64,000 bases of DNA from NCBI GenBank assembly GCA_015039465.1, contig MU130624.1:282540-346539 (forward strand). Reading direction: 5' to 3'. The position numbers and the translations under genes are program-made. Below are positions 3,838-53,027 of this stretch, in pieces. Numbering within the stretch: the first letter of the stretch is position 1; the number at the start of each line of letters is the position of its first letter. Source of the stretch: Phlegmacium glaucopus. Its lineage: Eukaryota; Basidiomycota; Agaricomycetes; Agaricales; Cortinariaceae. The notes beneath the pieces are model-generated. The model searched no databases. It was not told the origin of the DNA and saw nothing but the letters and a program-made list of their open reading frames with translations.

Positions 3838-3868
3838 CTCGCCCTCCAGATCGCGTTAAGGACGAGAT

Positions 3869-6800
3869 CTATTCTTCTAGGACATCGCTGGGACCAGAAT
3901 TCTTGGTGAGAATACTCGGGTCGATGGTAGATGGTCCGGTAGTATCCATAGAATTGTTGGTAGCAAAGTTGGAAGTGGACTGATCCGCGGAATTGGTAAA
4001 GAGAGTTAATGGGTCATCGAGAGTATGTTGAGAGGAAGAAACATGACGGTCGGAGGCATACGACCCCATTGAGACCTGGTCGTTATATTCTTCGGTCATT
4101 GGTGTGGCGATAGGGTCGAAACGGCGACTCTGATGGCGACGACTTTTCTCTTTTCCAAATTTTCCGAATAAATTGTTACGTTTTTCTTCGCGCTGGTCGT
4201 AGTGGTCACGACTTTTCTTGTTTCGGTAAGCATGGATGGTAGCGTAATCTTCGAAGACGAGAGCTTGGCCTTCAGTAAGACGACGAGGACCTGGCAATCC
4301 ACACTGTTCCGGGGTGATGAAGAAATCTTCCAAGTAGACTGGGCTGAGAGACTTTTGGGCGTAGTCTGGGTCCTCGTCTGGAGCATAAATAGATAAAATT
4401 CGAAGGTCATGAGGATAAGAACCGGTATTAAAAGTAGTGGCAAAGACGTGATAGCCGAGAGGGACTTTGGCGCGCGTCAAATCCTTTCCATCACAGATAT
4501 ACTTGTCAAAATCAAGGTAGGTCATGATCTGACCAACGTGAAGACGAGTAGGTTGTTGGTCGTTGTCGAACATGAGATATTCGGTTTTCTTGTGGCGAAT
4601 AAAATGTGGATGTGTGATCCCTTGCAACGGACGCATATCGAAATAAAGAATGTCGATTGATGGGTTATGGATGGGTAATGTGATGTCAGACGAATGCGAA
4701 GTCTGATGGGGGAAGAAAGGAAGAAAGAATGTCGACAGTAGGGATAAGGCGTCGAATATATATGCGGTTTCTTGAATAGAGGTGATCGAAATTTGATCGA
4801 AAGAGTCGGCGGATGGGAGCGGAGTGGAAAATGGAGGGCTCAGTGAGAGGGCCCCTAGGAAGACCTGAGGGTCTTCCCGTGGTGGACTACCCTTTCCTTT
4901 GGGTAGTTCTGCTATAGTTTTCACGCCTAGTAGTTCGAAATATTCGTCGAGCGCCTGTACGTGCCGAATTTGATAATACGGCATCCATGTGATGTCACCT
5001 GTTTTCCAGTGTATTTCAAACACGGCATCCTCTGCCGACCCATGATGTGACTTAATAGCGTCAACTGCCCATTCGTCATCCGTGGTGGACCCTTCTCCTA
5101 TTTGAGTATCCATCCTGCCGGGGAATAGTCTATCATCGTTAGGTACATGTAACCTTAACAAAGATGCGTGAAATACATCATGTAATCCCCGTTGTTTTAA
5201 GTGTGCAGGTAACTCAATCTTAAATGATTGATTATTAAAATCTTTAAGAATTTTGTAAGGTCCGATGTACTTCGGAATAAATTTTCGGGCCAATCCTTTG
5301 GCAAATTTGATATTTTTTGTAGATAGGTATATGAAATCCCCTGTCTCAAAAGGAACTTCCTGCCTTTTTCTATTAGCGTCTCTGGTTTGTTTAACACGAG
5401 AGGCTATAATACTATCATGCGCAGCTATAAGCGCTAGCTTTCTTTTCTCTGCAAAAATTCAAACATTGGAATATTCGGTTGATTTAGCCGAATTCCAAAT
5501 CATAGTTCTCGGCATTCTGCCAGTATTTAGGAAAAACGGCGCATAGCCAGTGCTTCCTGACCAAGCTGAATTAATGGCAAATTGAATCATGGGTAATTTT
5601 CCTACCCAGTCTTTTTGATTTGGGCTAATGCATTGCCTTAGCATTTGTGTGACGGTTCTATTTGCACGTTCCGTTGATCCATCCGTTTCTGGATGGTATG
5701 CACTTGACATTTTCAATGTCGTTCCTATTAATTTATGCAAATGCTTCCAAAAGGTACTAGTGAATAACACATCGCGGTCACTAATAATATTTTTTGGTAA
5801 ACCGTGATGCTTATATATGTTTTCAAACATCAATTCTGCCAAATCTTGTGCAGTATAGTTTATTCGGCTAGGTATTAACTCAACCATAGCTGTAAGTAAG
5901 CATATCACGACGGTGATAGAATCAAATGTGCCATCACGGTTGCTTGAAACAGGTAAAGGTCCTACGAAATCTATTCCTATTGAATCCCACAGCGCTGATG
6001 GCACAGCCAATGGATTTAATAAACCATAGGGTTTTTGATTGCTCGGCTTGCTTCGTTTACAAGTGACACAGGTATCACAGTAAGCTTTGGTGTCGGATAC
6101 CATATCCTTCCACCATACATTGTCCCTTAAGTAATTTAGGGTTTTACTAGCTCCCAAATGAGCCAATATTGAATGTGCTTCCGAAATAATTATTTCGCGC
6201 ACACTTTTTCCTTTTACCAATATTTTAGGTATACACAATAGTTCTTTTCCCGGTACTTTTAGATAGACTAAATCATTTCTTACTTCAAAATTTCTGAAGT
6301 CCTTCGGTTTTTCTATGACCGATTTAAACAAATTGTCTTCCTGGTACCGACCTCTCAATTCTTTGAGCAGGTCTAATCCATCACTGCTTTCGAGTATTAC
6401 GTCCGTGAAGGTATCAGATCGCGTTTCTGCTGGATCAAGATCAACTTCGACGTCGACATCAATGCTATTTTCGGTCTTTTGTTGTATTTCAGCCGCATTC
6501 TCGCCCTCCGTTCGTTTCTGAGGTCGAGGACCTTTCAGAACGAACTTATCTCTCATCCGCTTGGCGAAAGCTTTTGAAGTTTCAGGTTCACCCGTACTCT
6601 CTTCAACAGGATGTTTCTGTTGACGAACGCGACGCGTGGCTACTACTGCATCCGTACCAGCCAGCAACACTCTATTTGACACGACGGCGTCGTCGTTGAC
6701 AATGTCATGGTATGTGAATTCGCTCGCTGCCCTCTCTGTTCCTTTTGCATCATTCGAATACATTCTAGATAAAGCATCCGCTAGGACGTTCTCACTTCCT

Positions 6801-7831
6801 GCAGCATATACCACCTCAAAGACAAAAGAACTTATTTTCTCCAACCACCTGGCCTGGCGCCCGGAGATATTCTTCTGATTTAGTAAGTAAATCAATCCTT
6901 TATGGTCTGTTACCCATTTAAAATGGACTCCTTGCAGAATATCCTTGTGGCGAAGCATTGTTTCGACACCGGCTAACATTTCGATCTCGTGTACTGGATA
7001 GTTTCTCTGGGCAGCATTCAGTTTTGCCGAATAAAACGCAGCTATGTGGGCCGTTTTCCAGTCCTTACCCTGACTGATAACACCTGCTATTCCTGTAGAA
7101 CAGCCGTCCGTTACCATCCAAACAGGTGCCGAACCTTTCTCATATGAAATCGGTCGCCTGCTATGCTCCCGCGCGTTATGCGTCAATCTTTTGATTTCTT
7201 CAAACGCGCGGTGCTCTGTGTACCCCCAACAAAAAGGCACTGCATCTCCGGTTACTGCGCTCAGTATTCCCATTGGAATTCTAACATTCGGTATATCATC
7301 TGCCAAATATCCCACAGACCCTATGAAGCCCCTCAATAGGTCCCTATTTGTAGGTACTTTCCACGTTAACACACTATCCACTTTTTCTGGATCCATACGA
7401 ATTCCATCCCCATCAATTACACGTCCAAGTAACTTTAATTCCTCTAACAGGAACCGAAGCTTTCCTTTACTAAGGTACAATTTTTCCGTTCTCAACACTT
7501 CCATTGCAGTCTTACAATGTTCTATATGGTCTTTTAGCGTATCCGAATATATTATAATATCATCGAGATATACGTCGAGAAACCGACCTAGGTACGGTGA
7601 GAATATATAGTTCATCAAAGCTTGGTACGTTGCTGGAGCATTACAATCCCCCATCTGTAGAACTAAGCTGACCATATTGCCATCTGGCGTGGTCACAGCT
7701 GATCGTTCGACGTGTTCTGGAATAATCCTAATCTGTTCGTATGCTGCTGTCAAGTCAAGTACCGTCCGAAACGGCTTAGCAGCTACTCGACGTAATACTC
7801 CTTCAATATCTGGTAAAGGTGAGGTCATTTT
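3869..7831 (-). pseudogene. Gypsy pol: RT, RNase H, integrase, chromo-like domain, C-terminal extension
   Basis: One frame from 7831 down to the stop at 3869, interrupted only by TGA at 5459-5461. The RT shows the YLDD active-site motif near 7570. RNase H follows (VTDG, then DHKGL, then ADALSR). The integrase has an HHCC zinc motif (HSILAHLG...CDTCVTCK), then the D-D-E residues in GIDF, SDRD and TERAN. Past the stop comes the RKFIPKYIGPY integrase C-terminal module and a chromo-like segment (EWAVDAIKSH ... WMPYYQI). About 320 further residues extend beyond what I expect for this family, Ser/Thr-rich at the end. The stop replaces a position that usually reads 'VR.FA' in relatives, suggesting CGA to TGA. 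The RT start is cut at 7831/7832, where string-reversed sequence begins. Reversing that block supplies the expected upstream residues (RNKNTVK). Confidence 0.85.
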
Positions 7832-9778
7832 ATGAGGAATTGCCAAAGTGTTGGAATGGGTCCACTATCAGACTTCGCGACCCCGTCCTCGGCGACAGGT
7901 GGTCTATCCTCTAAATTCCAATGAGCTACGGTAGCTCTAGGACTGTAGGAGTATTAATCTCTAGTGAATCAGTTAAAACTCTAGTGCTATGTATTTAGTT
8001 CATAATTGTTACACTTTAAGTTAGACCCCTTAACCATACGATTTTTTGCGCGAGCATAGGATCCAAATTTTCTAGGGTAGTCTCCCCTAATAATAGGAGA
8101 TTACCTCCTAGGATCTTATAACCATCGTTCCGTAGACGACAAATTACCGTAAGTGAGAGTAAAGGGCTTACATTCTGGCCTTTGAGTTAGCCTAAAGGTT
8201 AAGGTATACATGAACTTTTTGAAACCTTCAAGTTGAATATAATAACAGTTGCTGCTAAACTCAGACTATAGTCTCTATCTTTTCTCGGAAAACCTTCTGA
8301 GTAGCAAATTAGACTATGTCACCATAACCTTTGCGTAGAGCTTCCTACTAGAAAAGATGTTTTCTATATAACCCATAGTTTTTGTACCAATGGTAGGCTA
8401 TGGCCATCCCATACTTCTGGGAATATCGCTTAATGGCTGAAACCAGCAGCTTCTTCTGCTGCTCCTTCCCTGTTGAAATCTTTCTTAACCTCAACGCAAT
8501 AGCTCTACGGTCGGTATAGGGCCACTGCCGCATGGGCGCCTAGGTTGTATGCATCATCCTCTTATGGCAAAAGCATATTTACAAATACTACCGCACCACG
8601 CGTATATGCTATCCTATGTCCCAAAACTTAGGATGGACAGAACCTTATAGTAGTCAACCCTTCTAAAAAGGGATCCTTTCACCAAACGTCTTGCGACATA
8701 CCGTTTGCGTCCGCTCCTGCGTGGGACCCTATAACGGCTACTCACCTACGTTGTAAAAGGTACCGTACGATGCTGAAATCTCCTATTGACATCGACAATG
8801 TTCTTTTAAAGTAACCTTTGGTTATATAGACCGCTACTGCTACTATCACTACTACTAAGCCTGCTACTGTTAACCAGGCTAACCTCACTAGAACTACTTA
8901 AGTCACTACTACTTCGCCTCCCGCGTAACGATAATTCGCGCAACTTGCCATAAGTTCAGCTGTTTTTATTTATACAGCTATAAGTTGCTTTGCGCCGGTC
9001 TTATTTTCTGCACCGTCCAGATAATGACGGGTTTGGGTAGCAAAATGCCCACTTATATTTGCCTTTAGGTCAAGCCCGCGATCAGCTAAGCCCTAGCAAT
9101 CCGCTAAAGTAGAGCAGCTGCCACCACCTAGTTAATTTCTATTTTTTCTTGCATGACAGTTTCGGGTAACCTGACGTCGACCGTCAAGTTCCGAGCTCTA
9201 GGTTTTAGTTAAGTTGTCAGTTACATCTGAACCGAATAGTCTCATATTTATCGCGTGCTGCAAAATTGCATCATTTAGACTTCCTAATGCTACGATAAAA
9301 TCCTTGTGGGACCTATATAGTCGTGGTTCATACGTAGCCCAACTTAGGTCGTTCTTAATACTATCCCTCACTGCTTGGAAATGGATAATGAAGCTCGCTA
9401 CTATGCTTCATAAACAACAGGCGATATAGACGAAATCTGCGACTTCACTATTCGCGCGCACTCCTTAACTACTGTATGCGCCTTGGAAACACGGCGTTTC
9501 AGCTCCTTTGCCTAGACGGAGGTAATTCTCGGTAATTAGTACGTTAAGGCAATTAACTACTCCCCTTTTGGATGGTTACCGCTCGCAGAGCAACGGGACT
9601 TTATAAGTCCCTAGTCACCTTACTCTTTTCTCTGCGAATAAACTTCAGTCCGTCTACCTTCTACTGTTGTCGTTCCTTGTGCCATGGTTACAATAACTAA
9701 GGTTTTGGTGTATTTGGTTTTCTACGCGTCCTCAACTCTTGACATTAACTAGACGCACTCGCCTTGTTTTTGTGCCAC
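7832..9778. other. Block R1: literal string reversal of gypsy gag/protease sequence
   Basis: Read right-to-left without complementing, this block reproduces the gag-protease part of the same element. Reversed 7850-7916 equals about 24470-24545, and reversed 8820-8940 equals about 23445-23565, with a few substitutions. Coordinates pair as p and about 32395-p. Neither strand as written encodes anything. Turned round in place, its outer end joins 7831 and continues the pol frame exactly. All short frames in this block as written are artefacts. Confidence 0.9.

Positions 9779-9803
<25 letters not shown>
9779..9803. other. 25-nt poly-A run, probable assembly-gap placeholder
   Basis: Exactly 25 adenines between two string-reversed blocks of unrelated content (gypsy gag on the left, WD40 repeats on the right). 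A second run is also exactly 25 nt and a third is 27 nt. The fixed length and the positions point to a gap filler written as A rather than a retrotransposon tail. Confidence 0.75.
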
Positions 9804-9809
<6 letters not shown>

Positions 9810-10554
9810 GTGTGACGTGCCTAGACCTTATGTCGGTGTCCCCTCACACTCCGTCTCGACTTCCCTGTGAGTCGTGGTCAGACCAGACGACAAAAGAGAA
9901 GATTACCACATATATAACACAGACGTAGACTACTAACGTGACGTTCCTAGACCTTATGTCGGTGTCCTCTTACACTTCACCTCGACTTTCCTGTACTTGT
10001 ACCAGAGATGAAACGACAGAAGAGAGGACTGTCATGTGTATAACACAGACGTAGAAAACTAGTGTGACGTTCCCAGACCTTATATCAGTGTCCTGTCACA
10101 CTCCGTCTCGACTTTCCTATAAAACCTCAAGAGTCGAGACGACAGAAGAGAGGACTACCGGACGTGTAACACAGATGTAGACCAGTATTGTGACGTTCCT
10201 AGACCTTATGTCGGTGTCCTCTCACACTTCGTCTCGACTTTCCTGTAAGTCCTAGTCAGATGAGACGACAGAAGAGAAGACTACCATACGTGTAACACAG
10301 ACGTAGACTCCTATTATGACGTTCCTAGACCTTGTGTCGGTGTCTTTTCACACTCCGTCTCGACTTACCTGTATGTAGAGAAGGTAGATACAGACTAGTG
10401 TCAGTTAATGGACTAAATGGTAGTTAAGGACTACCACAAAAATAGGTGGTAGTACAAGTACCGTCTGAAGTCGAGAGTAATGTCCGTAGTAAGGAAGTCT
10501 ATATAGTTCTGTTTTATAGGGTGTGGTACTTGGAGGTATTTTAAACCTAAGGTA
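9804..10554. other. Block R2: literal string reversal of the WD40 gene's 3' part
   Basis: Read backwards without complementing, the block shows about five more copies of the 126-bp WD40 unit found at 10555-11800, followed by a non-repeat tail. Turned round, its edge meets 10555 in frame and in register with the repeat. As written it contributes a false C-terminus to the WD40 frame down to 10405. The true gene end is within this block or in the gap. Confidence 0.88.
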
Positions 10555-13500
10555 AGATGCAGACACAATATGCATACCATCAGGAGAGAAGACAGCAGAT
10601 TTGACATATCTGGAATGTCCTCTCAGCTCTGCACCACCCTCTCCTGTGGCTGTATTCCATATCCTTGCAGTTTGATCAGAAGATGCAGACACAATATGCA
10701 TACCATCAGGAGAGAAGACAGCAGAGAAGACCCATCCTAAATGTCCTTTCAGCTCTGCCTCACACTCTCCTGTGGCTGTATTCCAGATCCGCGCAGTAGT
10801 ATCATAAGATGCAGACACAATGTACATACCATCAGAAGAGAAGACAGCAGACAAGACTGGTGCTGAATGTCCTTTCAGCTCTGCTTTACACTCTCCTGTG
10901 GCTGTATTCCAGATCCTTGCAGTGTTATCATGAGATGCAGAGACAACATGCATACCATCAGAGGAGAAGACAGCAGAGTGGACCTCTTTTGAATGTCCTT
11001 TCAGTTCTGCCTCACACTCTCCTGTGGCTGTGCTCCAGATCCTTGCAGTGTTATCATAAGATGCAGACACAACATGCATACCATCAGGAGCAAAAACAGC
11101 AGAGTGGACCTTATTTGAATGTCCTTTTAGTTCTGCCTCACATTCTCCTGTGGCTGTCTTCCAGATCCTTGCAGTGTGGTCTGCAGATGCAGACACAATA
11201 TGCATACCACTAGGAGAGAAGACAGCAGAGCAGACTGATGCTGAATGTCCTTTCAGCTCTGCCTCACATTCTCCTGTGGCTGTCTTCCAGATCCTTGCAG
11301 TGTGGTCTGCAGATGCAGACACAATATGCATACCATCAGGAGAGAAGACAGCAGAGCAGACTGATGCTGAATGTCCTTTTAGCTCTGCTTCACACTCTCC
11401 TGTGGCTGTCTTCCAGATCCTTGCAGTGCAATCATCAGATGCAGACACAATATATATACCATCAGGAGAGAAGACAGCAGAGCAGACTGATGCTGAATGT
11501 CCTTTCAGCTCTGCCTCATGCTCTCCTGTGGCAGTATTCCAGATCCATACAGTGTGTTCATCAGATGCAGACACAATGTGCCTACCATCAGGAGAGAAGA
11601 CAGCAGAGTGGACTTCTTCCGAATGGCTCAGAACTGCTTCAGTGAAGCTCCATGCTTTTCTCCTTCCAATACAGAGCTTCCATGGACAATCCATCCTACT
11701 TCCATATGTTTTCCAAATCTCTGAATTTTGTGGCAACCAAACTAATGCTGAAGGACATCCTTCCAGACTGTTTATTTTAATAAATTCATAATTTTCTTTC
11801 AGGAACCTTTTAGCATCAATCATTGTCATTTTCAACAGCCTCTGGGCCTAGTTTGTTTTATAAGTCCAACTTATCTGCAGAAAAATGATTACTTACATCA
11901 TTTACCCATCTTTCTAGTGTATGCAATGAATGCATTGCTATTTCCAACTTTCCTAAAATACTCAAACAATCCATCCATTGCAGAAGATGTCTTTGGAAAA
12001 ACTGCTTCAATGTATCAACTTCATTGTTGTTGTCTGAAAATGTGAAATGTGAAACCCAGCTACCACAAGCATATGCAAGAGATTCAGAAATGTCTTCACA
12101 TCTCCTTTCTGCCAAGTAAGATACTCTTTCTTTCTCTGCCCATTCCCTCTCCATCAAGGACAGACACTGAAGTGCTAGATGCTTATGTGAAGCACAAGGG
12201 TCAAAATAATACTTTGAGGAAAGAATTTGATTACTGATGAAATCATAGAAGGAGGCATGGAATAGTGATATGGGTATATTAGGATCTTGAGATGGGATAT
12301 ATATCAAGGAATGAAGTGAAGAAAGAGCAGCCTCAGCATGTTCTATGGGCATACACATTAAAGCACTGATAGCAGTCATAGAAAGAGGATTATAGGCATA
12401 TACAACAGCTTGAAGTATTTTGTCTATATTTAACCTCTCCTTTTGATTTGTAAAGGTATATGCAGCATCCAAAATTCTTTTATAAAGAAGATCCAGTGGA
12501 TGAGTTAGACCAGATGTTGTTTCCAATGACATATTAACTATGTCTGAAAGTCGCTGAGGCATGCTAGAGCTACCCCTCTGAGCAATATATTTGCAGACAG
12601 TGGCTGCATATATGAACAAAGTGCCAGACATGCTGACAAGGCTTTCAAGTTCAGCCTGAGGAGGCCAATTATGCCTATTGTACTTCACTTGCAGCCAAGC
12701 TTTGATGTAAAGCTCAATATCACCCTTCACAATCTCCTTTTCAACCTCATGAAGGATGAATTTTAAATCACCCAGAGAATCACCAAAAGTCTCTTTCACC
12801 ACTATTTCTGGACGACTAGTGATGAAGAACTTCAATGGGAGAGATGCACTGTGCTTTAAGATCATAGAGAGCAACTCAGCCACAAGAGACTGGTCAGAAC
12901 ACTCATCCAGAGCATCAAGAACAATAACTGGGACAACTACTATATCTCTGGTATCCCTGTATGCAGTGGTGAGTGGTCTAACAATGAAATTCAGGAATTG
13001 TTTGCCAATTCTCCAAGATGAGCAGTCAGAATTGGTTTCCACTGCATCCAAGACCAGAGGAGATAGAGGGGGAAGATACCTGGCCAACTGAAGAGCAATG
13101 GTGGGGATGATACAACGGACATCACTGGTATCAACCCGGAGATGAGAAGCAAAAAAGGTACCACCAAGGGATCTCTTTTCATCAAGGATTTCACTGAATG
13201 AATAAGCGATTGTTGTTTTGCCGGTTCCAGCCATCCCGTTGAGCCAGTATACCTTTTTAGTCGTATTATCACTTGCCCACATCCGTAGTTTGTCAAGGAT
13301 CGCTGTGCGCGTGTTCTCTGTGCATGCATTGCGAGGAGCAGGGGATGACGCGTCGTATTCTGCAAATTGAGCACGCGGCAAGAGTTTCTCATGTAGTGCA
13401 TTCTATGAGGTTCAATTAGCCATTAATAAAGCTCTACTTTGAAGATTATATACGCTCACAAGGATTCGAGTCTTCGAATTCTCATTTCCATCCGCATTGG

Positions 13501-14252
13501 GCGCATTGTGGACCTAACGGAATATAGAATTGTTAATACGTAGAGTAACTTTACAGAGCTAGAATGATATTTACATTAATTGTCGGCTGATGCATGTACA
13601 CGTTTTCGATACCGTGTAAAGCATAGGATGGCTTATTGATGTTCTGAAGTGAGATCTGATAAATAGGCAGTATTTAGTCACGACGGCGGCGAGCGCAAGA
13701 CAAATACTGACTGCGGATGGAGCTTCTGGTACGTTATTGGCATTGACAATTGTCGGCTGATGCATGTATGCATTTGCGACACCGTGTAAGGCAGGGAGTG
13801 AGCTATTGGCGTTCTGAAGTGAGATCTGCTAAACAAGCGGTAATTAGTCACGACAGCGGTGAGCGGAAGTTAAATACTGACCGTGGATGGAGCTTCTGGC
13901 GCTGAGTTACCTGGGGCTGAAATTGGCGGAGACATAGAGTCCGTTTCTGTATTTGCAACCGTTGTGTCGGGTGCACAGTTGATGCTGACCATAGGGACCG
14001 GCAATGAAGGAGCATAATCGAATGGCACGTTGCTGTTAAGGTTAACATTTAATAAAAATGGGACAACAGGGATTCAGCTGTTCACCTGGTTCCTGCATCT
14101 GTCGTCGCCATATGGTTATCAGGGCTCGAATCCACGTTGATCGACGATGGTGTGGGCCGGCCTGAAAGATGTAGAAAAGAAGATAACCTCGCTTTCAAAG
14201 ATCGAGTAGTTTTGGTTATGCGATTGCTCTTAGATGGTCTTTCGCTCGACAT
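10555..14252 (-). CDS. NACHT-WD40 STAND ATPase (fungal NLR-like), 3' end misassembled
   Basis: Seven exons read on the minus strand: 14252-14086, 14032-13882, 13825-13712, 13655-13575, 13513-13460, 13402-11897 and 11841 onward. All junctions are GT/AG and in phase. The start MSSERPSKSN is the usual start of Agaricomycete NLR-like proteins. Exon 6 holds the NACHT NTPase: Walker A GMAGTGKTT near 13235, Walker B VIVLDALDECS, then ITSRPE. The 55-nt intron 11842-11896 (GTAAGT...CCCAG) links it to the WD40 part, which opens with DAKRFLKENY. At least eight near-identical 42-residue WD repeats (SAVFSPDG..IVSAS....ARIW) follow before 10555. About five more lie in block R2. The family is thought to act in non-self recognition or cell-death signalling: ligand binding by the repeats and NTP-driven oligomerisation. 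The N-terminal linker exons 3 and 4 are a tandem duplication. The C-terminus is not recoverable as written. Confidence 0.85.
13579..13915 (-). repeat. 170-bp tandem duplication of exon plus intron in the NACHT-WD40 gene
   Basis: Two copies with a 170-bp period: TGTCGGCTGATGCATGTA starts at 13581 and again at 13751, and ATGGAGCTTCTGG at about 13716 and 13886. Each copy carries an exon beginning ISLQN and containing ALHG and YMHQPTI, plus the flanking intron with a GTCAGT donor. Both exons are phase 0, so the duplication lengthens the linker without breaking the frame. Confidence 0.85.
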
Positions 14253-15213
14253 GATGATGAAAGAGAGAGAGCTGGCTGGACAGTGGCTGTACGAGTTTGC
14301 TCTTCTTAGTCCCACGCTTAAGGGCAGAGACATGACGATAATTAATTCAGTAGTATAAGCAACACTACCAACATCATATGTAATGGCTCATCGACAACGT
14401 CCATCTAGCTACTTCCTAACCCTTACCTTGCACTACTCGCAGGTTGCGTCGTTTCAATATCACTTCAATGAATTGCTCTTGATAAATAGGGTATACTGAT
14501 GAAAGGATTGAGAGACGGGAGAAGTGTTTCCGTCCCATCTTGAATGGCAATTGTGTAGTTGGATGAGGAAATATAGTCGCCGATAGGGGTCACAGTTTGA
14601 TAGTAGGCGGTATCGAGATGACTTCAATAATGTTGAGGTGGTAGTTGGTGGTCGTAATACTAATTTTGTTCACGCCGTCGCTGAAAATTGCATCCTACTT
14701 AAATGACTTGGTGGTCGTCTGGCACTGCCAGCTGTATCGTTTTTCATGTTGACAGTAAGTTAGTGACTTAGCGACATTGGTAAAAGGCAAGTGCAACCGA
14801 CAGACCCACAACATTTCCTAACCCTGAAAGCAACAACATCAAGCTGGATTGCTAGCAGTGAGGTGGCTTCGACAGCGTTGATACTCGGAGTTGGTAATGT
14901 TAATAGGTGTTTTTAGGCCTTTAGGCCTGTCGTGGGCTAAATATCAGTTGTGGAATTTGCGGCTCAGTCCAAGGTATAATGGGGGAAAGAGAGAGGACAG
15001 CGGGAGAAGAGCGTTGGCAAAGAAGCAGCTTCCAATTTCAATTGGCTATTCAGAGCTGAGCAAGATGCTGGAAAGTGAGGGATTCGTGTCGAAAAAATGA
15101 TGGCGAGACTTTTAGCTTTTTGCCGCAGCCTTGATCTATTTGTAATTTCTACAAGCCTTCGCCAAACACTCTTTGTTCCCCTCACATCTTCGTTGTTCTC
15201 GCTTCCAGCTATC
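14253..15213. promoter_or_regulatory. Divergent intergenic region between the NLR gene and bL33m
   Basis: About 960 bp between two divergently transcribed genes, so it should hold both promoters. Just before the bL33m ATG the sequence is pyrimidine-rich (CACTCTTTGTTCCCCTC at about 15167-15183, then TCTTCGTTGTTCTCGC), typical of fungal housekeeping promoters. No TATA box or coding exon was convincing elsewhere. Confidence 0.4.
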
Positions 15214-15494
15214 ATGGGCGCGAAAAGTAAGGCTAGGTAGGGCTGATATTAATGGTTGCCACGTTCAATCTTACACACGCACTCATAGGACGATAATCGT
15301 TCGTCTAATCTCAACGGCTCAAACTGGCTTTTTTTACACTACGCAACGTGTACGACAAGGTCCCAGGCTTTCCGCTGTTAAATACGACCCAAAAGGTGCG
15401 ACATTTACCTTGATTTCTTTTTGAAAACTTTCTGATCGTCATCTTAGTGAAGCAACGGGTCTTATTTGTTGAGAGTAAGAAAACAAAGAAGTAG
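15214..15494 (+). CDS. MRPL39: Mitochondrial large-subunit ribosomal protein bL33
   Basis: Three small exons, 15214-15236, 15289-15395 and 15448-15494, joined by two 52-nt introns, give a 58-residue protein. It begins MGAKSKARTIIVRL, continues TGFFYTTQR and KYDPKVKQRVLFVE, and ends SKKTKK. The R-T-I-x-V-x-L ... TGFFY ... KYDP-V-x-R-VLF-E pattern is the bacterial/mitochondrial bL33 signature, and 58 residues is a usual length. Both introns have GT/AG ends and keep frame (AG+G for Arg, G+TG for Val). It is a structural component of the mitochondrial large ribosomal subunit, so it should be constitutively expressed and essential for respiration. It is too fragmented to appear as a long reading frame. 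Confidence 0.9.
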
Positions 15495-15941
15495 TCCGGT
15501 CACAAGTTCATACGCGTGTAGTTGAGTATTTATTCTTGGTAAGTCATCTTAAAAAAATTCTCGCTACGAACTGATACTGGACTGAGCAGTGATAGTTATT
15601 AATTTGGCTCCTTCATAATCGCATCAAACTTTCCAGCCTCTTTCAAAGTGATTAACATAAAAATGCGCTGGAATTGCAGTAATCTGCAGTACGATCGCGA
15701 GGGCATAGCTGAACATGTTATTGAAACAGAAACCTTCAGCTCCATACTACCACGAAAATATATCGGCCAACTTGCGAATGCTGTATTTATGCTTGGAGAA
15801 TTGTTAGTGAGTCCCAGTCACAAGAAAGCAACGAGTTAGCTTGAGGACTACACAATCCAGAATACAAAAAACTTGTATCGACTGTTTACATTATCAATTT
15901 GGCTACCAATCAACTTGCAAAATGCCCGTCATTGCCACGTT
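15495..15941. other. Convergent intergenic region
   Basis: Lies between the ends of bL33m (+) and the DJ-1-like gene (-), so it holds their 3' UTRs. On the minus strand near 15596-15645 a short frame reads KEAGKFDAIMKEPN then stop, which could be a leftover terminal exon. No donor or acceptor context fixes it. Confidence 0.3.
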
Positions 15942-16637
15942 CTAATCTTCCTCGCACCCGTTCAAATCTATCCCCTCGAGTATCTTGGCAAAGGGATCCG
16001 GCTGAGCGGGCTTGGGCTCATACTCTGATATCAATTTCGCCCATTTCACCACTTCTGGGTCGAAGTGGACTCTCGCAAATTCAGCACTGAGATCGATACC
16101 CGCCGTAACGCCCGCCGAGCTCCAGACCTTGCCGTCCACGATCCACCTTCTGTCTCCAACCCATTTCACCTTCTTATTTAAGGTACCCGCCTCTGCGAAC
16201 GTCTTTAATGCAACTTTGTTAGAGCAAACGTGCAATCCGTCGAGAACGCCCGCTTGAGCGATCGCCATCGAGCCGGTGCACACTGTTAGAAGTGCCTTGA
16301 GCTTTGGGACACGTTCGTGTAGGAACGCTGCGCAGCCTTTAGGAAGTGGCGCGGCAGGGTCTGGTCCTGGAACAAAGAGGTAGTCGAGCGGAGGACAATT
16401 TGCATAAGTGCATGAAGGGATCTGAAGGGGTCCTGAGGACGATTTGATTGGAGTGAGGTCAGAGGAGATGTAGTGCCATATGATTATCGGGGCTTTATGA
16501 ACGACGGCTTTGGCAAAGCTGATTTCCTTCATCTTTTCTTGGGAATGGTTGTTGAGGTAGTCAACGGATCCCGCAGCATCGAGCCATTGGTATCCAGGGA
16601 AGAGCAACAAGCCAATATGGAGGGTGTGGGGTGACAT
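15942..16637 (-). CDS. DJ-1/PfpI-family protein (class I glutamine amidotransferase-like)
   Basis: Uninterrupted 231-residue frame from ATG at 16637. The fold signature is clear: N-terminal IGLLLFPGYQWLDAAG, then DYLFVPGPD, then the nucleophile elbow LLTVCTGSMAIAQAGVLDG with the candidate catalytic cysteine at residue 120. WSSAGVTAGID follows, which in relatives carries the Asp side of the active site. The family includes deglycase/chaperone-like DJ-1, ThiJ, and isonitrile hydratase-type hydrolases. The 'TVCTGS' elbow and 'AGVTAGID' resemble the isonitrile hydratase/AraC-N-terminal branch more than DJ-1 proper, but substrate and activity cannot be assigned. No targeting signal is seen, so it is likely cytosolic. 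No intron is required and the length is normal for the family. Confidence 0.88.
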   Translation of the reverse strand: MSPHTLHIGLLLFPGYQWLDAAGSVDYLNNHSQEKMKEISFAKAVVHKAPIIIWHYISSDLTPIKSSSGPLQIPSCTYANCPPLDYLFVPGPDPAAPLPKGCAAFLHERVPKLKALLTVCTGSMAIAQAGVLDGLHVCSNKVALKTFAEAGTLNKKVKWVGDRRWIVDGKVWSSAGVTAGIDLSAEFARVHFDPEVVKWAKLISEYEPKPAQPDPFAKILEGIDLNGCEED

Positions 16638-17229
16638 GGTGTTTAAAACTTGGAGGATGTGGGTGCACGACGTTGAGGTTAGTTGCTGTGGTGTCTGCGG
16701 TTTATCCCCCCACTCTTATATACTGAAATCCCGATATATGTTTAACGAGAAGTCGAAAGTTGGGACCTCGTTCCTTGCATTTCTTGCGTTGTTACGAGTG
16801 GATCGGACATGCTTTCATTCATCGGCGCTCAACCTTCAATATCTGACCTGACTGATTGAGACTGTAATAGATGGTCCAATACAATTGTTATCCATCCAGG
16901 CCATCCCAGGCCCCCGCATTTGTCCTCCTTTTGAATGGCTTTCGAACGAAAGGCATGCCAAGGTGAGGCACAACAGGAACATGTCTTCGGCGATAAACTA
17001 ACGCCGTTACAAGTACCTTTCTCTCTCGTTCCTCATCCGGACTGTCAACAAAAATATATGTAGTCAGGTACGGAGCGTCGCACTCTAGGCGCGTGTCACG
17101 TGTGACGGCACGTCTTTGTACGTCAATTCTTTCGGAACAAACCCCACATGCTGTGTATATTGGTATGCTCGTATCTTTAATATCTTTAATCTTATTTTTG
17201 AGAACAGACCTACATATACTGTCGACAAA
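16638..17229. other. Upstream region of the DJ-1-like gene
   Basis: About 590 bp with no coding sequence I can support. It should contain the promoter of the minus-strand DJ-1-like gene next to 16640-16700. Confidence 0.3.
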
Positions 17230-18240
17230 TATATGAGAAAATTCCCCTCCTCGGCACGTGGCGTTGGTCGCTATTCACCACGGCAGAACCGCTTGAGACA
17301 TGCCAAAGACTCCCACAGGTCCTTCTCGCTAGACACCTTGACTTGCCGCTCGAAGTTGCAGACTCTCAGCTTCCGAAGCTCAAGAAACTCAATTTGACGA
17401 TGCAAGCTGGGGCGTTCATGGGCAGCATTGATGATTCTGGAGCCCGTTCCCTGCAAAACCATCTCACAATTGAGGAACTCAACTGGTCACCTATTGGCTC
17501 GCCAAATTTTCCCTCTCAATCTTAGGGTCCTCTGCATAATCCGACAGTTCATTGTTTCATTGAACGACCCCAAGTCTACATTGTCGTCAATGGATTGCTA
17601 TCGCCCGCCTCTATCTACGCTGGTCACGGCTACTACCACACCGGTCCCTGTCGAGCAGACCCTGAGCCCATTGAGTCTCCGGATGTGTACAATCTTAATG
17701 CACAGACCCTCCTGGAATTGTAGTGTGTAGACAAAGGGACGTTACGGCAGCTCAAGCCCACTCCTTTGGGAATATGCTTACTTTACACGAATTTGCAGCA
17801 CACTTTCGTAACATTGAATGGTTATCTCCCCTTTTGTTCATTGACCAACTAACGCAGTCCATCCGATCATCATATTAGATGTTGACTGATCTTCTCCCAC
17901 GCTTCTCAAATCTTCGAGTATTTCGCGGAAATGCACTGTAAATGGCAAGAAACGGGAGCTGCATGAGATGCTCAGGGAAATCACGCAAACATGCCCTCGC
18001 CTTCGTGGATTGGACATGCATGAAGCCTACAAACGGATAATTTTGAAATGTGAAGGTGAAGAGGGGGAAAATTTTATAGCTACGTGACCGTTACGAAACC
18101 ACCTTCTCGGTATGCTTACCTTGCGCCAAATACCGACGATGATACTTTCTAACTCTTTCGTAGGAATGTATTTGACATCACTGCTGGAGACTTTGACGAG
18201 CATCAACTTCTGAGCCTGGTTACTTATGTAGTTCACCTAA
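17230..18240 (+). pseudogene. Decayed F-box/LRR-like gene
   Basis: Plus-strand pieces in different frames read like one Agaricomycete F-box/LRR protein: LPKLKKLNLTMQAGAFM near 17368-17415, LEELNWSPIGSP-like sequence near 17475-17510, LLPRFSNLRVFRGNAL near 17893-17940, and an 'EMLREITQTCPRLRGLDM' segment near 17967-18020. Stop codons and frame changes separate them, and no set of short introns joins all of them in phase by eye. I therefore call it a relic, although a multi-intron gene with a poor start cannot be excluded. Confidence 0.5.
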
Positions 18241-18784
18241 AGTGGCGTTGCTTTCGCATTAAGTATTCAACTTCACATCACTAATGGAGCACTCAGACGA
18301 GTCCTCCTTCTGATCTATTGCCCACAATTTCTTTCATTCCACTGAGTACTGCCCTCACTTCAGTTAATGAGGGGCCTTTATGCAGAAACCATGTATGTAC
18401 AGCTTTTTGTCTGTGCCAGTATAATCATGATCACTGATACCTCAGTTTGGGGGTGAAGGGACTTATGGTATCTTTGGACCAGTGTAAGCAATATAATTTC
18501 TGTTGTCAATTCTGGTTGTCATTCCTTCATTCCAGGTCTCTAGCTACATAGGTCAATGTCACAAATTGGAAAAAGCAAATCTTTGATATATTTTGCATGC
18601 CAAGTGTCTGCTACACTGTTCAGATCAATGGCATGGTCACTTGCAGATGCCACTCAGAAGATCACCTGATGTTACTTGTGAAGTGGGAGCAGGCTGCAGG
18701 TGGTTTCCTCCTTGCTATGAGGCCATGAGATTTGATGCCTGCTGTTGACAGTGGTTGAAACTCTGGACAAAAGCTACTAGTGTT
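18241..18784. other. Unassigned region before the repeat block
   Basis: About 540 bp with no recognisable gene or TIR. Its right part (from about 18655) is also present, string-reversed, at the right end of block R4. Confidence 0.3.
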
Positions 18785-20378
18785 TGAAGGTCCAGTTACA
18801 AGACCGGAAAAAGACCATAACCAGACCGGACCGGACCGGAAAAAGACCGGACCAGTGGTCCGGTCTTTTTATTTTTGAGAATCAAAGACTGGAAAAAGAC
18901 TGGTCTCGATTAACCGGTCTTTTGAGGTTCAGACCGGTTTGAACTGGCAAAAGGGTAGCCCTAATTTACCCCTTTCCAACGAGCCCAAAATCTTAAAAAT
19001 CCAATAAAAACTGGCTGAGAAATAAATAGATCTGTAAAATAGTCTAAAATATTCGCTAAAATAAGGCATTTTACTAGTATTACTGTAGAAAATCCAAATC
19101 CTAACAGAATTTAATGTTCTTGGGCTCGTTTGGAAGCTATTATTAAAATTAACAACTGTTTCTGATACAAAAATATATATTTGTCAGCAGAAGACCAGTT
19201 AGGACCAGGACCAGTCCTAGGACCAAAAAAAACTGATGTAAACTGGTCCTAAGCGGTCCAGTCTGGTCTTTTTTGATCCTAGGACCGAGGTGCTCAAACG
19301 AAACTTTCAAGTTCTCAATGGCAGATAGACCTGCCATGCGGCCCTTCAGTCCACATGACTATCAGCTGCATTTTTCCTCGGTCTTTTAGGGGCCGGGGTA
19401 CCTGGATTTTCATTCAGGCATTTTTTAGTCCTTTTTGGTAGAGGCGGTACGTAATTATATTTAATGGTCGATGAAACGAGTGTGGTGAAGTTGAATGAGA
19501 TGTGAGCAGCTTCTGCGCCATAGGTAGTGTTGCGATATATGTAACATGTTTGTTGCCAGGAATATGGATGCTGTGCCCCAGATGTCTTGACTCTTAGATG
19601 CATATTGGATGCTTCATTGTGGGATGGAGATCTTATACAGTAGTGATTGATTGTCATCACTTTATCACTACGCCTGTTTTTGGAGACTAATGGAGACCAA
19701 GACACTCCGAGACGGCAGTGAAAATTTCAATAATGAAATGATGCGGCGGCACACGTGGGAATAAATATTAAAATGCACATCAAATTTTAGTAAGTATGGT
19801 TTGATGGTCGTGTGTAAGGGTAGAAGGAGATCGACTCATCATAGTCTCATCCACTGATTATCAATAGTTTACAAAGTCTGCCTACGGACCGGTTACAGTC
19901 TCGGTTAAAGGCCCTGAGGGTCAAAAAACCGGACCAGACCAGACTTTTAAACACTAAAAGCTACTGAGCCTGGCAGACTCAGAGATGAAAATAAGTTGAT
20001 CCCATAGTTAACATCCTGGGCTCAAGCTGTATTTGACAGCTCAAAATTCTAGTATCATGGAGCCTCAGAAGACCTAAGTAGGGATGCCAAAGTTCGGTTC
20101 TGAACCAGTCCAGAGAACCAGAACCAGCTGAACCGAACCGCGGTTCTGGTTCGGTTCTGGTTCTGGTTCACCCCCAGCCATCTGGTTCTGGTTCTGGTTC
20201 TGGATTGGCCAGAAATCTGAGAACCAGTTCTGAACTGGTTTGAACTGGTTCTGAACCACTTTATCCCAAGGCAAATACCTAAGTAAGATATCTACTTATT
20301 TGCATGTTAAATGACACATTGTACCTGTATCTATAATGAAAATATTTATCCAAGTCACCAACACTATATATTTCCAAT
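18785..20378. repeat. Non-autonomous DNA-transposon-like repeats with GACCGG and GGTTCT subterminal arrays
   Basis: Contains dense short motifs: GACCGGA/AAAAGACCGG at 18800-18960, GGACCAG/GGTCC at 19195-19290 with a related inverted set at 19880-19950, and an array of GGTTCT units at 20095-20265. The 19200-19950 motifs match, as reverse complement, the repeat at 27610-27765, which supports this region being in true orientation. No transposase is visible. The pattern fits hAT-like or other non-autonomous elements. Exact termini and target duplications were not resolved. Confidence 0.5.
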
Positions 20379-20403
20379 AAAAAAAAAAAAAAAAAAAAAA
20401 AAA
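20379..20403. other. 25-nt poly-A run, probable assembly-gap placeholder
   Basis: Exactly 25 adenines separating DNA-repeat sequence on the left from string-reversed gypsy pol on the right. It has the same length as the run at 9779-9803. Confidence 0.75.
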
Positions 20404-22984
20404 CTTCATAAACAACAGGCGATATAGACGAAATCTGCGACTTCACTATTCGCGCGCACTCCTTAACTACTGTATGCGCCTTGGAAACACGGCGTTTCAG
20501 CTCCTTTGCCTAGACGGAGGTAATTCTCGGTAATTAGTACGTTAAGGCAATTAACTACTCCCCTTTTGGATGGTTACCGCTCGCAGAGCAACGGGACTTT
20601 ATAAGTCCCTAGTCACCTTACTCTTTTCTCTGCGAATAAACTTCAGTCCGTCTACCTTCTACTGTTGTCGTTCCTTGTGCCATGGTTACAATAACTAAGG
20701 TTTTGGTGTATTTGGTTTTCTACGCGTCCTCAACTCTTGACATTAACTAGACGCACTCGCCTTGTTTTTGTGCCACTTTTACTGGAGTGGAAATGGTCTA
20801 TAACTTCCTCATAATGCAGCTCATCGACGATTCGGCAAAGCCTGCCATGAACTGAACTGTCGTCGTATGCTTGTCTAATCCTAATAAGGTCTTGTGCAGC
20901 TTGCTAGTCGACACTGGTGCGGTCTACCGTTATACCAGTCGAATCAAGATGTCTACCCCCTAACATTACGAGGTCGTTGCATGGTTCGAAACTACTTGAT
21001 ATATAAGAGTGGCATGGATCCAGCCAAAGAGCTGCATATAGAGCTACTATAATATTATATAAGCCTATGCGATTTTCTGGTATATCTTGTAACATTCTGA
21101 CGTTACCTTCACAACTCTTGCCTTTTTAACATGGAATCATTTCCTTTCGAAGCCAAGGACAATCTCCTTAACTTCAATGAACCTGCACATTAACTACGCC
21201 TACCTTAAGCATACCTAGGTCTTTTTCACCTATCACACAATTGCACCTTTCATGGATGTTTATCCCTGGATAACTCCCCGAAGTATCCCAGACACCCTAT
21301 AAACCGTCTACTATATGGCTTACAATCTTAAGGTTACCCTTATGACTCGCGTCATTGGCCTCTACGTCACGGAAAAGCAACCCCCATGTGTCTCGTGGCG
21401 CGCAAACTTCTTTAGTTTTTTAACTGCGTATTGCGCGCCCTCGTATCGTCCGCTGGCTAAAGTATACTCTTTCCAAGCCGTGGACAAACCTACCATTGCC
21501 TGCCGACAAGATGTCCTTATCGTCCACAATAGTCAGTCCCATTCCTGACCTTTTGCCGGGTGTATCGACGTAAAATAAGCCGTTTTGACTTACGACGGGT
21601 CTCTTTGATAGGTCATGTGCTCTAGCTTTACAATCGGCCACAGCTTTGTTACGAAGCGGTGTTCCTATAAGACGTTCCTCAGGTAAAATTTACCCATTGT
21701 CTGGTATTTCCTGACTAAATGAATGATTTAGTCTTCTTATAGAGGCCCGCGGTCCGGTCCACCAACCTCTTTTATTCAAGAAAACAGAAGCTCCACCATA
21801 TACGACGTCCTTCACTCTTGCAGGATCGCCTACGAAATAGATCTTACATAAGCTTACTACGTTTTCCTTGTCTCTCCCGTCGCTCGCTTAAGTGTATGGT
21901 ACTGTAACAGTTGCTGCTGCGGCAGCACAGTTTATCTCACAACGACCGACCATGCCTACGTCATCATCGGTGCGCAGCGCAAGCAGTTGTCTTTGTAGGA
22001 CAACTTCTCTCATGCCCACTTGGACTTTGAAGTTTTCGAAAGCGGTTCGCCTACTCTCTATTCAAGCAAGACTTTCCAGGAGCTGGAGTCTTTGCTTGCC
22101 TCCCGCTCTTACGCCGACTTTATGTTGTTTTCTGGCTTTTATCGTAACTACAGCTGCAGCTTCAACTAGAACTAGGCCGTCTTTGCGCTAGACTATGGAA
22201 GTGCCTGCATTATGAGCTTTCGTCACTACCTAATCTGGACGAGTTTCTTAACTCTCCAGCCATGGTCCTTCTGTTAAACAAATTTAGCCAGTATCTTTTT
22301 GGCTTCCTGAAGTCTTTAAAACTTCATTCTTTACTAAATCAGATAGATTTTCATGGCCCTTTTCTTGATAACACATATGGATTTTATAACCATTTTCCTT
22401 TTTCACACGCGCTTTATTAATAAAGCCTTCGTGTAAGTTATAACCGAGTAAACCCTCGATCATTTTGGGATTTAATGAATTCCCTGTTACATACCACCTT
22501 CCTATACCATAGGCTGTGGTTTCGAATGACACTATGGACACAGTGAACATTTGCTTCGTTCGGCTCGTTAGTTTTTGGGATACCAAATAATTTAGGTAAC
22601 CGACACGGTAGTCGCGGCACCCTAAGTTATCCTTATCTAAAGCATCCTGGAAATGGACAAAGTTCGTTGGCACTACCGTGTAAACTAAGATAGTGGCAGC
22701 ACTATACGAATGAATGTCGATACCAACTCAATTATGGATCGGCTTATTTGATATGACGTGTTCTAAACCGTCTTAACTACAAACTTTTGTATATATTCGT
22801 AGTGCCAAATGGTTTTTTATAATAATCACTGGCGCTACACAATAAGTGATCATGGAAAACCTTCGTAAACGTATTTAATTATCCTTGCTGTAACTTTTAC
22901 AGTTCACGTATGGTAGGCCTTTGCCTACCTAGTTGCCTTGCACGTTTATCTTGGCAGTGTGTTTACGATTCCGTTACGTAATCG
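20404..22984. other. Block R3: literal string reversal of gypsy RT/RNase H/integrase
   Basis: Read backwards without complementing, this block matches copy A pol: reversed 20776-20830 equals about 7768-7831, and reversed 22930-22980 equals about 5628-5678. Pairing is p with about 28606-p. Its first 373 bases equal the last 369 or so of block R1. Turned round in place, its inner end joins 22985 and continues the protease frame (SSDDTKYLL) instead of the premature stop seen as written. Confidence 0.9.
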
Positions 22985-24869
22985 GTATCATCGCTCGAAG
23001 TAATAGGTAAAGGTTCGTCACTCCCTATCATAATTCTTGCTGGATTCAACCCGATGCATACTTGGTGCTGATATATCCAGGGTGTTCCTAAAATAGCATC
23101 GTAATCCTTCAGATTTACTACGTTAAAACGTCGTGCGCTATTTATACTCTGATAAGCCAAGTCTACATTGACTGTTGAATTGATTTTGGATCTCGAGCCT
23201 TGAACTGCCAGCTGCAGTCCAATGGGCTTTGACAGTACGTTCTTTTTTATCTTTAATTGATCCACCACCGTTGACAAGATGAAATCGCCTAACGATCCCG
23301 AATCGACTAGCGCCCGAACTGGATTTCCGTTTATATTCACCCGTAAAACGATGGGTTTGGGCAGTAATAGACCTGCCACGTCTTTTATTCTGGCCGCGTT
23401 TCGTTGAATATCGACATATTTATTTTTGTCGACTTGAATACCGTTCAACGCGCTTAATAGCAATGCGCCCTCCGCTTCATCATCACTGAATTCATCAAGA
23501 TCACTCCAATCGGACCAATCGTCATCGTCTGAATCATCATCACTATCATCGTCATCGCCAGATATATTGGTTTCCAACGAAATTTTCTTGTAACAGCTAC
23601 AGTTATCCTCTAAAGTCGTAGCATGCCATGGAAAATGTTGCATCCACTCATCGGCAATATCCCAGGGTGCGTCCTCGCCTGCGTTTGCCATACAGCGTTC
23701 TGCAAACCACTTTCCTAGGGAAAAATCTTCCCAACTGATGATATTCCAAGACAGGTAGGATTCAAAACCCTGTATCCTATCGTATATGCGCACCACACCA
23801 TCATAAACATTTATACGAAAACGGTATTCTCCTACTACGTATGTTGGATCTGCGGGTACGCCGTCACTGGGATATGGCTGGCATCTCGATAACGCAACCC
23901 CAATTCTTTCTAAAGTTGTCTCTTCCTCGTCGTCTTCTTCGACGACTAAAGTTGGTAATTCGCTATAAGGGTCTTCATACCCTACCGGTATCGGATGGTA
24001 ACCATGTTTTTGATACCCAATATATCTTTTGTAGAAAAGATCATCCTTCGAGATGCGTTTCCAATACCACTGTATCAGATTAAACGATGAGTCTTCCAAA
24101 AGGCTCTTTTCTATCTCTGATATCAGACTTAAATCGTCGTCGACAATAATATAAGTTGAACTTCCAAACTTTTTCAAGTACATATGGAATCGGAAATCAG
24201 ATTGAGTTTCCGGTCTTACATTCGGGAAATGAGAGTGAATGCCATTAAACAGTAGATGCCTTGCTACCAATATTCTAGGATCCTCCATTAGAGGATAATA
24301 ATCCCCTCTGATGGGATCTTTTAAACCTAGGATACGAGCGCGTTTTTTAGCATACCAATTCCCCAGATTGAATTTCACATTGTTAATACTTGATTTATGT
24401 ATCGTGATCTCAAAATTGACTAAGTGATCTCTAATTATGAGGATGTCAGGATCTCGATGGCATCAAGTAACCTTAAATCTCCTATCTGGTGGACAGCAGC
24501 TCCTGCCCCAGCGCTTCAGACTATCACCTGGGTAAGGTTGTGAAACCGTTAAGGAGTACTCCGTAGTCATTTCATAACAATCTCCAATTTCACTTCGCGC
24601 CATTAGGTCTCCATGCTGCCAATTTGGGTAGTTTTTTCGCCAATTTATCAATTCACCCGTTTCAGACTCTTCGTCTGTGTCTATACCGATCGCTCCTACC
24701 GGCATTGAATTTAGGACTTCGTCAGGGTCGCTGAAATTTTCTACTAAATTCATATCTATTCTGTAATTTGGAATTCCAGGCGGTTTCTGTGTGCCTCCCT
24801 TTACCACAGCTCGGTGATGACAATTTCGGCTTATATGCCCTTCTTCCCCACAGTTAAAACATCTTCCGG
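22985..24869 (-). pseudogene. Gypsy copy B gag (zinc knuckle) and aspartic protease
   Basis: Reading from 24869 down, a CCHC zinc knuckle comes first (CFNCGEEGHISRNC), then about 115 residues to an in-frame TGA at 24463-24465, then an open frame of about 460 residues. The stop lies in the same frame as both halves. The corresponding codon in copy A (inside R1, read backwards) is CGA, so this is a C-to-T nonsense change. The downstream part is acidic in the middle (Asp-rich run near 23520-23570) and then contains the retropepsin domain: ALVDSGSLGDFI (active-site D-S-G) ... DAILGTPW. The upstream part of gag is lost at the gap. The stop at 22963-22965 is an artefact of the R3 junction. Confidence 0.82.

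Positions 24870-24896
<27 letters not shown>
24870..24896. other. 27-nt poly-A run, probable assembly-gap placeholder
   Basis: 27 adenines immediately upstream of the copy B zinc knuckle. If the placeholder is 25 nt as at the other two sites, two adenines belong to flanking sequence. Confidence 0.7.
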
Positions 24897-24900
<4 letters not shown>

Positions 24901-26950
24901 TATCTGAAAACAATCCTATAGTGGTTAATCTGTTCTTTAAGAGTAAAATTTAAAATAAAAGATTTTAATGTAGAATAAAGAATCTTTATTTATATAGAAC
25001 TTTAAACTCCGGTCTTCAAACATCATAACCACAATATTGATACTGTAGTGATTTTCATTTGTACTTTTCTTTTTTATGATGATTTGGTAAAACGGTTGAT
25101 CACTGTTGGAACTTAACCTAAGAACGTTATCCTCATATTAATTATAATTTTTTTGGACTTCAATATTTCATTTACTCTGTATAATAACTAATACATGATA
25201 CGGTCTGGTTTCTTACTACATGAAGACTAACCTTTATATATCACAACCACTGAACCTATTTATAAAAGTAATATCTATGTCCATGTTACACAGTAAATTG
25301 TACGTTTATTCATCTATAGAATGAATTCATAAACGGAACCCTATTTCACCAAGTCTTGGCCAAGCTTGGTCAAGTCTTGACCAAGAGTCTAAAGACCGGT
25401 TAGGTCTTGGTCTTGGTCTTGGTCTACCGACCCCCACTTGGTCTTGGTCTTGGCTTGGTCTTGGCGCCAAGCCAAGTCGACCAAGACCAAGAGACCTGAC
25501 CAAGTCTTGGCTTGAAACCGTAGGGATGAATCCAGAAGACTCCGAGGTACTATGATCTTAAAACTCGACAGTTTATGTCGAACTCGGGTCCTACAATTGA
25601 TACCCTAGTTGAATAAAAGTAGAGACTCAGACGGTCCGAGTCATCGAAAATCACAAATTTTCAGACCAGACCAGGCCAAAAAACTGGGAGTCCCGGAAAT
25701 TGGCTCTGACATTGGCCAGGCATCCGTCTGAAACATTTGATAACTATTAGTCACCTACTCTGATACTACTCAGCTAGAGGAAGATGGGAATGTGTGCTGG
25801 TAGTTTGGTATGAATGATTTTAAACTACACGTAAAATTATAAATAAGGGTGCACACGGCGGCGTAGTAAAGTAATAACTTTAAAAGTGACGGCAGAGCCT
25901 CACAGAACCAGAGGTAATCAGAGGTTTTTGTCCGCATCACTATTTCACTACTGTTAGTTAGTGATGACATATTCTAGAGGTAGGGTGTTACTTCGTAGGT
26001 TATACGTAGATTCTCAGTTCTGTAGACCCCGTGTCGTAGGTATAAGGACCGTTGTTTGTACAATGTATATAGCGTTGTGATGGATACCGCGTCTTCGACG
26101 AGTGTAGAGTAAGTTGAAGTGGTGTGAGCAAAGTAGCTGGTAATTTATATTAATGCATGGCGGAGATGGTTTTTCCTGATTTTTTACGGACTTACTTTTA
26201 GGTCCATGGGGCCGGGGATTTTCTGGCTCCTTTTTACGTCGACTATCAGTACACCTGACTTCCCGGCGTACCGTCCAGATAGACGGTAACTCTTGAACTT
26301 TCAAAGCAAACTCGTGGAGCCAGGATCCTAGTTTTTTCTGGTCTGACCTGGCGAATCCTGGTCAAATGTAGTCAAAAAAAACCAGGATCCTGACCAGGAC
26401 CAGGATTGACCAGAAGACGACTGTTTATATATAAAAACATAGTTCTTGTCAACAATCCAAATTATTATCGAAAGTTTGCTCTGGTTCTTGCAATTTAAGG
26501 CAACCCTAAACCTAAAAGATGTCATTATGATCATTTTACGGAATAAAATCGCTTATAAAATCTGATAAAATGTCTAGATAAATAAAGAGTCGGTCAAAAA
26601 TAACCTAAAAATTCTAAAACCCGAGCAACCTTTCCCCATTTAATCCCGATGGGAAAACGGTCAAGTTTGGCCAGACTTGGAGTTTTCTGGCCAATTAGCT
26701 CTGGTCAGAAAAAGGTCAGAAACTAAGAGTTTTTATTTTTCTGGCCTGGTGACCAGGCCAGAAAAAGGCCAGGCCAGGCCAGACCAATACCAGAAAAAGG
26801 CCAGAACATTGACCTGGAAGTTTGTGATCATCGAAAACAGGTCTCAAAGTTGGTGACAGTTGTCGTCCGTAGTTTAGAGTACCGGAGTATCGTTCCTCCT
26901 TTGGTGGACGTCGGACGAGGGTGAAGTGTTCATTGTAGTCCACTAGACTG
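24897..26950. other. Block R4: literal string reversal of repeat-rich sequence
   Basis: Read backwards without complementing, this block matches 18657-20378: reversed 25231-25310 equals about 20290-20375, and reversed 26900-26944 equals about 18662-18705 (pairing p with about 45607-p). It has many differences from 18657-20378, so it is a second copy of the same repeat cluster, not a duplicate of the same DNA. The right boundary near 26950 is approximate. Small frames here are artefacts. Confidence 0.85.
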
Positions 26951-29380: not shown

Positions 29381-29558
29381 TTGAAATTTTGACCCTGGCC
29401 CTGGGTATTTTTTAATTTGTGGTGCCTAAAATGAAAGTTCCAAAGTATGATAGACTGCACCTTCTCTATAATTTTCTGCAAAAAAATTGGAATTTATGTT
29501 TGTGCTCCAAACCTTAATGACAACAAGATAGAGTACAAACACTACTTTGATGATTAGA

Positions 29559-52977: not shown

Positions 52978-53027
52978 TCTAATCATCAAAGTAGTGTTTG
53001 TACTCTATCTTGTTGACAATAAGTTTT

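Follow-up and report, generated by a model that had tools for sequence, protein, structure and literature searches.

Four blocks of a 64,000-nucleotide stretch of the Phlegmacium glaucopus genome are written with their letters in reversed order but without complementing, and each of them abuts a run of A. The stretch, hereafter the window, covers positions 282,540 to 346,539 of contig MU130624.1 in GCA_015039465.1 (C224:282540-346539 of the 60.5-Mb assembly of 259 contigs). We are close to certain that the blocks are a gap-filling artefact, namely that contig ends were extended, that many of these extensions were written reversed and uncomplemented, that a 25-base place-holder was left and that its Ns were turned into A. 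An assembly or gap-filling error had already been put forward by a sequence-only reading of this DNA, and it is the sole reading we found that fits, because of the letter reversal, the 157:1 strand bias of the A runs, the restored register and reading frame of one block, and the recurrence at comparable A25 sites elsewhere in the assembly.

Results

Block 1 (7832..9778), block 2 (9804..10554), block 3 (20404..22984) and block 4 (24897..26950, its outer end falling between 26947, where the alignment ends, and about 26951) were compared with the window by BLASTN in three forms, i.e., as written, reversed and complemented. The sequence-only reading had held that they match other parts of the window only when read backwards, and this was borne out, as the long matches of each block appear solely with the plain reversed string or, equivalently, with its complement on the other strand. 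When reversed, 7832-9405 corresponds to 22985-24558 (1574 bp, 98.7%, 20 substitutions), 20777-22984 to 5624-7831 (2208 bp, 99.5%, 10 substitutions) and 25228-26947 to 18659-20378 (1720 bp, 99.3%, 12 substitutions). These three long pairs together hold 42 substitutions, 37 of which are transitions, and not a single indel. For block 2, reversed 9806-10373 matches the WD40 array at 10741-11308 over 568 bp at 84.7%, and every one of the four blocks has a significant partner in the window.

In the written form, long matches within the window are absent, apart from a self-match of the WD40 block and the segment 9406-9778, which is identical to 20404-20776, both lying inside reversed blocks. The 331 bp of block 4 at 24897-25227 have no match within the window when reversed. 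Chance or low complexity was rejected as a source of the matches, as only two of 24 string-reversed 1.5-kb control tiles of the window gave any match, one of 28 bp and one of 76 bp, the latter to block 4 itself. Taken alone, block 1 shows an increase of its longest stop-free stretch from 75 to 649 codons upon reversal and block 3 from 147 to 860 codons, while that of block 4 is hardly altered (115 to 126 codons).

Block 2, which would represent contig B extended leftward into gap 1, consists of WD40 repeats of a NACHT-WD40-type gene. On its minus strand, contig B itself (10555..20378) has open frames with NACHT and WD40 domains, running from 13402 to 10555, and it further carries a DJ-1/PfpI frame (Pfam). 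Taken together, the NACHT/NPHP3_N, WD40 and TPR frames of the window give it a fungus-like character. The earlier claim that un-reversing the blocks in place restores reading frames at their inner junctions holds for block 2 at 10554/10555, the one junction at which block and contig were joined; the stop-free stretches of the other blocks refer to each block by itself. Across this junction, the identity at multiples of 126 bp is 0.269 as written vs 0.821 when reversed, with an offset of 0. The 126-bp repeats of the un-reversed block hence line up exactly with those of the adjacent array, and the added sequence is continuous with the contig end. Over 250 codons, the eight in-frame stops of the written form disappear completely, and the reversed block alone is recognised as WD40 by Pfam with an E value of 3.3e-41.

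The proximity of the blocks to poly-A was confirmed as well, with runs on the + strand at 9779..9803 (gap 1) and 20379..20403 (gap 2), each of exactly 25 A, and at 24870..24896 (gap 3), of 27 A, all directly abutting the blocks. Natural homopolymers have no cause to favour one scaffold strand or a single length. In the 60.5-Mb assembly, however, the + strand has 157 runs of exactly 25 A and the - strand a single one, the respective numbers being zero and one for exactly 24 A and 72 and one for exactly 26 A. Natural poly-A was rejected on the basis of this strand bias (157:1, 0:1 and 72:1), which fits a 25-base place-holder gap written in A rather than in N. The ratio of 26- to 25-letter runs (0.46) would fit a gap of fixed length that has an A next to it in about 23% of cases, implying roughly 265 gaps in total. 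We thus infer that the A runs are place-holder gaps in which N was converted to A; gap 1 would be 25 Ns written as A, and gap 3 would comprise 25 letters plus two adjoining A.

Blocks 1 and 3 would represent contig A extended rightward into gap 1 and contig E extended leftward into gap 2, respectively, and both consist of retroelement sequence. The end of contig A (5624..7831, minus strand) is the pol part of an LTR element with RVT_1, RT_RNaseH and Integrase_H2C2 domains on the minus strand of 5459-7831 (Pfam), which we take to be of Ty3/gypsy type from this domain set. Contig E (22985..24869, minus strand) is repeat sequence throughout and holds the protease-bearing, gag-side part (RVP_2) of the same kind of element, and both the end of contig A at 7831 and the start of contig E at 22985 fall within such an element. 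Un-reversed block 3 would lead from a part like 5624-7831 (X) through a part Z into contig E, and un-reversed block 1 would lead from contig A through Z into a part like 22985-24558 (Y). The 373-bp Z is identical in the two blocks, which, as far as their letters go, agree with each other once un-reversed. The contig E part has at least two further long copies in the genome, on C50 (99%) and C230 (98%). With 14 mismatches in 1739 positions, the C50 copy is closer to un-reversed block 1 than is contig E, which differs at 20 of 1574. In addition, 165 bp of 9406-9778 are, once reversed, 100% identical to sequence at the end of contig C50. Since the element has other copies in the genome, blocks 1 and 3 cannot fix the contig order. 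At L038 1883-3618 (C230), an N run lies inside another copy of the retroelement and is possibly an assembly gap, in which case the assembly would keep some gaps as N and others as A25.

The situation is more informative for block 4, which would be contig F extended leftward into gap 3 and which would re-read the right end of contig B (18659-20378). Nine of the 12 sites at which the reversed block differs from this end fall in 61 bp of a multi-copy repeat and three in a 39-bp simple repeat, and no second full-length copy of 18659-20378 was found among the 40 of 673 candidates that were scored. Judged from the sequence, contig F, when extended leftward, most likely passes through 331 bp before it enters the end of contig B. 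Because block 4 runs into the end of contig B and not into contig E, contigs B and F are probably neighbours in reality, separated by 331 bp, and contig E was probably misplaced between them; the scaffold would accordingly have a wrong order at this point. The start of contig F (26951..27300), which on the actual chromosome would probably lie next to contig B, has GTTCTG-type repeats in common with the end of contig B.

The region matched by block 4 also includes, at 18778-19292 (columns 120-634 of 18659-20378), a repeat about 515 bp long that is dispersed in dozens of copies (87-93%). It is split by about 595 bp that recur at C8:452982-453566 (96%) and that are probably a nested insertion. 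Among the tandem repeats of the window are a 17-bp minisatellite at 62608-62759 (8.8 copies, 91% matches) and a 31-bp repeat at 28219-28291, whose unit starts TTAGGGTTA and is partly telomere-like in spite of its internal position.

Recurrence of the reversal was assessed with an alignment-free score, in which a 6-mer model of normal sequence is set against one of the same sequence string-reversed; the training set comprised 60 kb or 120 kb of other contigs and excluded the window. The held-out score is positive in all four blocks (24.9 to 34.6 with 60 kb and 35.5 to 44.8 with 120 kb) and negative in all eight neighbouring stretches as well as in all 18 two-kb tiles of 27-63 kb. The sequence-only reading had called for a scan of the assembly beside poly-A, and such a scan was run on 20 A25 sites, chosen with their flanks unseen among the sites listed from the 157 exact-25 runs of the + strand and scored leave-one-out. 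The score exceeds 15 in 11 of the 20 loci (13 of the 40 flanks). As segment ends derived from the 6-mer score are imprecise and scores below about 25 are unsafe alone, the firm count is restricted to segments of at least 25, without the weak calls in L012 and L023. Such reversed-like segments are present at the run in ten loci (L009, L013, L015, L016, L017, L018, L021, L022, L024 and L025), where they span the A25 run or end no more than about 130 bp away from it, and are absent at the other ten sampled sites.

The window, L030-L036 and the outer parts of the sampled loci served as controls. The score peaks at 7.8 in 36 anchors of the window and at 7.0 in the 14 readings of L030-L036, which all share one dispersed repeat and are hence not independent. 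Five of the 40 outer-part anchors exceed 15, all of them on the side of the called block in their own locus, and the remaining 35 peak at 11.8. Weaker isolated peaks off the runs (12.9 to 24.4) were found in L010, L023, L025, L026 and L027 and, within the window, at 965-1931, 3710-4807 and 63232-63689, the latter in a scan whose training set included L029, a locus overlapping with the window and with part of block 3.

With an E-value cutoff of 1e-20, string-reversed alignment of the 20 loci and the window yielded 151 distinct pairs. One member is reversed-like and the other normal-like in 144 pairs, and seven pairs have the same sign; opposite signs are, however, expected by construction in a well-matched reversed pair, and only the location is informative. 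Less than 200 bp from an A25 run lie 99 of the 144 reversed-like members vs 12 of the normal-like ones, and less than 1 kb from a run 134 vs 37. When L024 is left out, as its TPR array supplies many of the pairs, the numbers are 35 vs 8 of 74 for the shorter distance and 64 vs 23 for the longer one. A reversed-like member is located at most 1.2 kb from the run in 11 of the 20 loci (L009, L012, L015, L016, L017, L018, L019, L021, L022, L024 and L027), although the one in L012 has a length of only 83 bp. Alignment thereby supports eight of the ten loci with the strict score; L013 aligns with its sign undecided, and L025 is without an alignment in the pair list. In L023 and L026, the members are 2.5 and 3.0 kb away from the run and pair with the outer margin of the L015 block, so that their sign may be misassigned.

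Discussion

The question arises how letter-reversed sequence could have entered a genome record. From our point of view, the process would have started with a scaffold containing some misplaced contigs, of which a gap filler would then have lengthened the ends into the scaffold gaps. Gaps would have stayed unclosed because the neighbours were wrong or repetitive, and a 25-base place-holder would have been retained in them. Many of the extensions would have been written with their letters reversed and uncomplemented, and the N place-holders could have become A when the file passed a step that has no symbol for N. Un-reversed in place, block 1 would continue contig A at 7831/7832, whereas the transitions of blocks 2, 3 and 4 into contigs B, E and F would lie at 10554/10555, 22984/22985 and about 26950, respectively. 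The near-identical pairs would be explained by extensions that cover, for a second time, sequence present at another place.

Some of these steps have counterparts in published gap-filling procedures. In the available part of its description, PBJelly defines a gap as at least 25 N, and the extension of a flank without closure merely shrinks the gap (PMC3504050). Misjoined contigs, as an excerpt of another study states, result in non-overlapping extensions, overfilled gaps and an inflated assembly (PMC9635638), and the accessible portion of a further paper holds a single example of an overfilled gap. In this window, block 4 enters contig B and not contig E, and blocks 1 and 3 are repeat sequence. 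The present case resembles PBJelly-type filling as excerpted (PMC3504050; PMC9635638) in its 25-base gaps and in contig ends that would have been extended without closure. It differs from these descriptions in that the extensions are reversed uncomplemented and the gaps are written as A, neither of which is mentioned in the parts of these papers at hand. A limited look at open-licence papers likewise returned no title or abstract, among the matches listed, that describes a reversal fault or gaps written as A. As a guess, the software responsible might be PBJelly-like.

One could alternatively imagine that the paired copies are true second copies, i.e., paralogues or a second haplotype, of which the letter order alone was corrupted, the contigs themselves being arranged correctly. 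This would be in line, for blocks 1 and 3, with a retroelement that has at least two further long copies, with the closer relation of un-reversed block 1 to the C50 copy, and with pair differences that are mostly transitions and include no indels. In block 4, however, the differences are limited to multi-copy sequence and a simple repeat, and the scored candidates included no second full copy of the region, so that we regard this explanation as unlikely, albeit not negligible. It is much less probable again that the reversal arose after deposition, during copying or conversion of the file and not at gap filling, as the reversed blocks sit at gap flanks, in fact at some flanks of a run but not at others, and a file-conversion fault could not recognise where extensions begin. 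A real inversion, mirror repeat or other rearrangement of the DNA in the organism can practically be discarded, since an inversion in DNA yields the reverse complement whereas the blocks align at length as plain reversed strings only, since no DNA process should place them against runs with a 157:1 strand bias in arbitrarily oriented scaffolds, and since the real inverted repeats that the window does contain (e.g., 31796-33393 and 49318-50915, two TPR-repeat regions that are 93% complementary) have the normal reverse-complement form.

The blocks do share with a true inverted repeat or inversion that two near-identical copies exist in opposite reading directions, but differ from it in that the letters are reversed and not complemented. 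What a true inversion looks like in this genome is illustrated by the genuine inverted duplication of the TPR-repeat gene region at 29509-34174 and 48540-53027, which is 88-94% complementary with arms about 14-22 kb apart.

If the blocks are, as we conclude, extensions written backwards during gap filling, the same pipeline fault could also be hidden beside 25-base A or N runs in other public assemblies, where it would create false orphans, broken genes and an inflated size; we consider this a realistic prospect, although the balance tips somewhat against it. Two simple screens detect the error, namely the strand bias of A runs of exact length and string-reversed self-alignment. For P. glaucopus, the strict score reveals a recurrence at ten of the 20 A25 sites that were sampled, so that the whole record needs checking. 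Reversed blocks are missed by ordinary homology searches, break gene models and duplicate some sequence, and the sequence as written should be absent from the organism.
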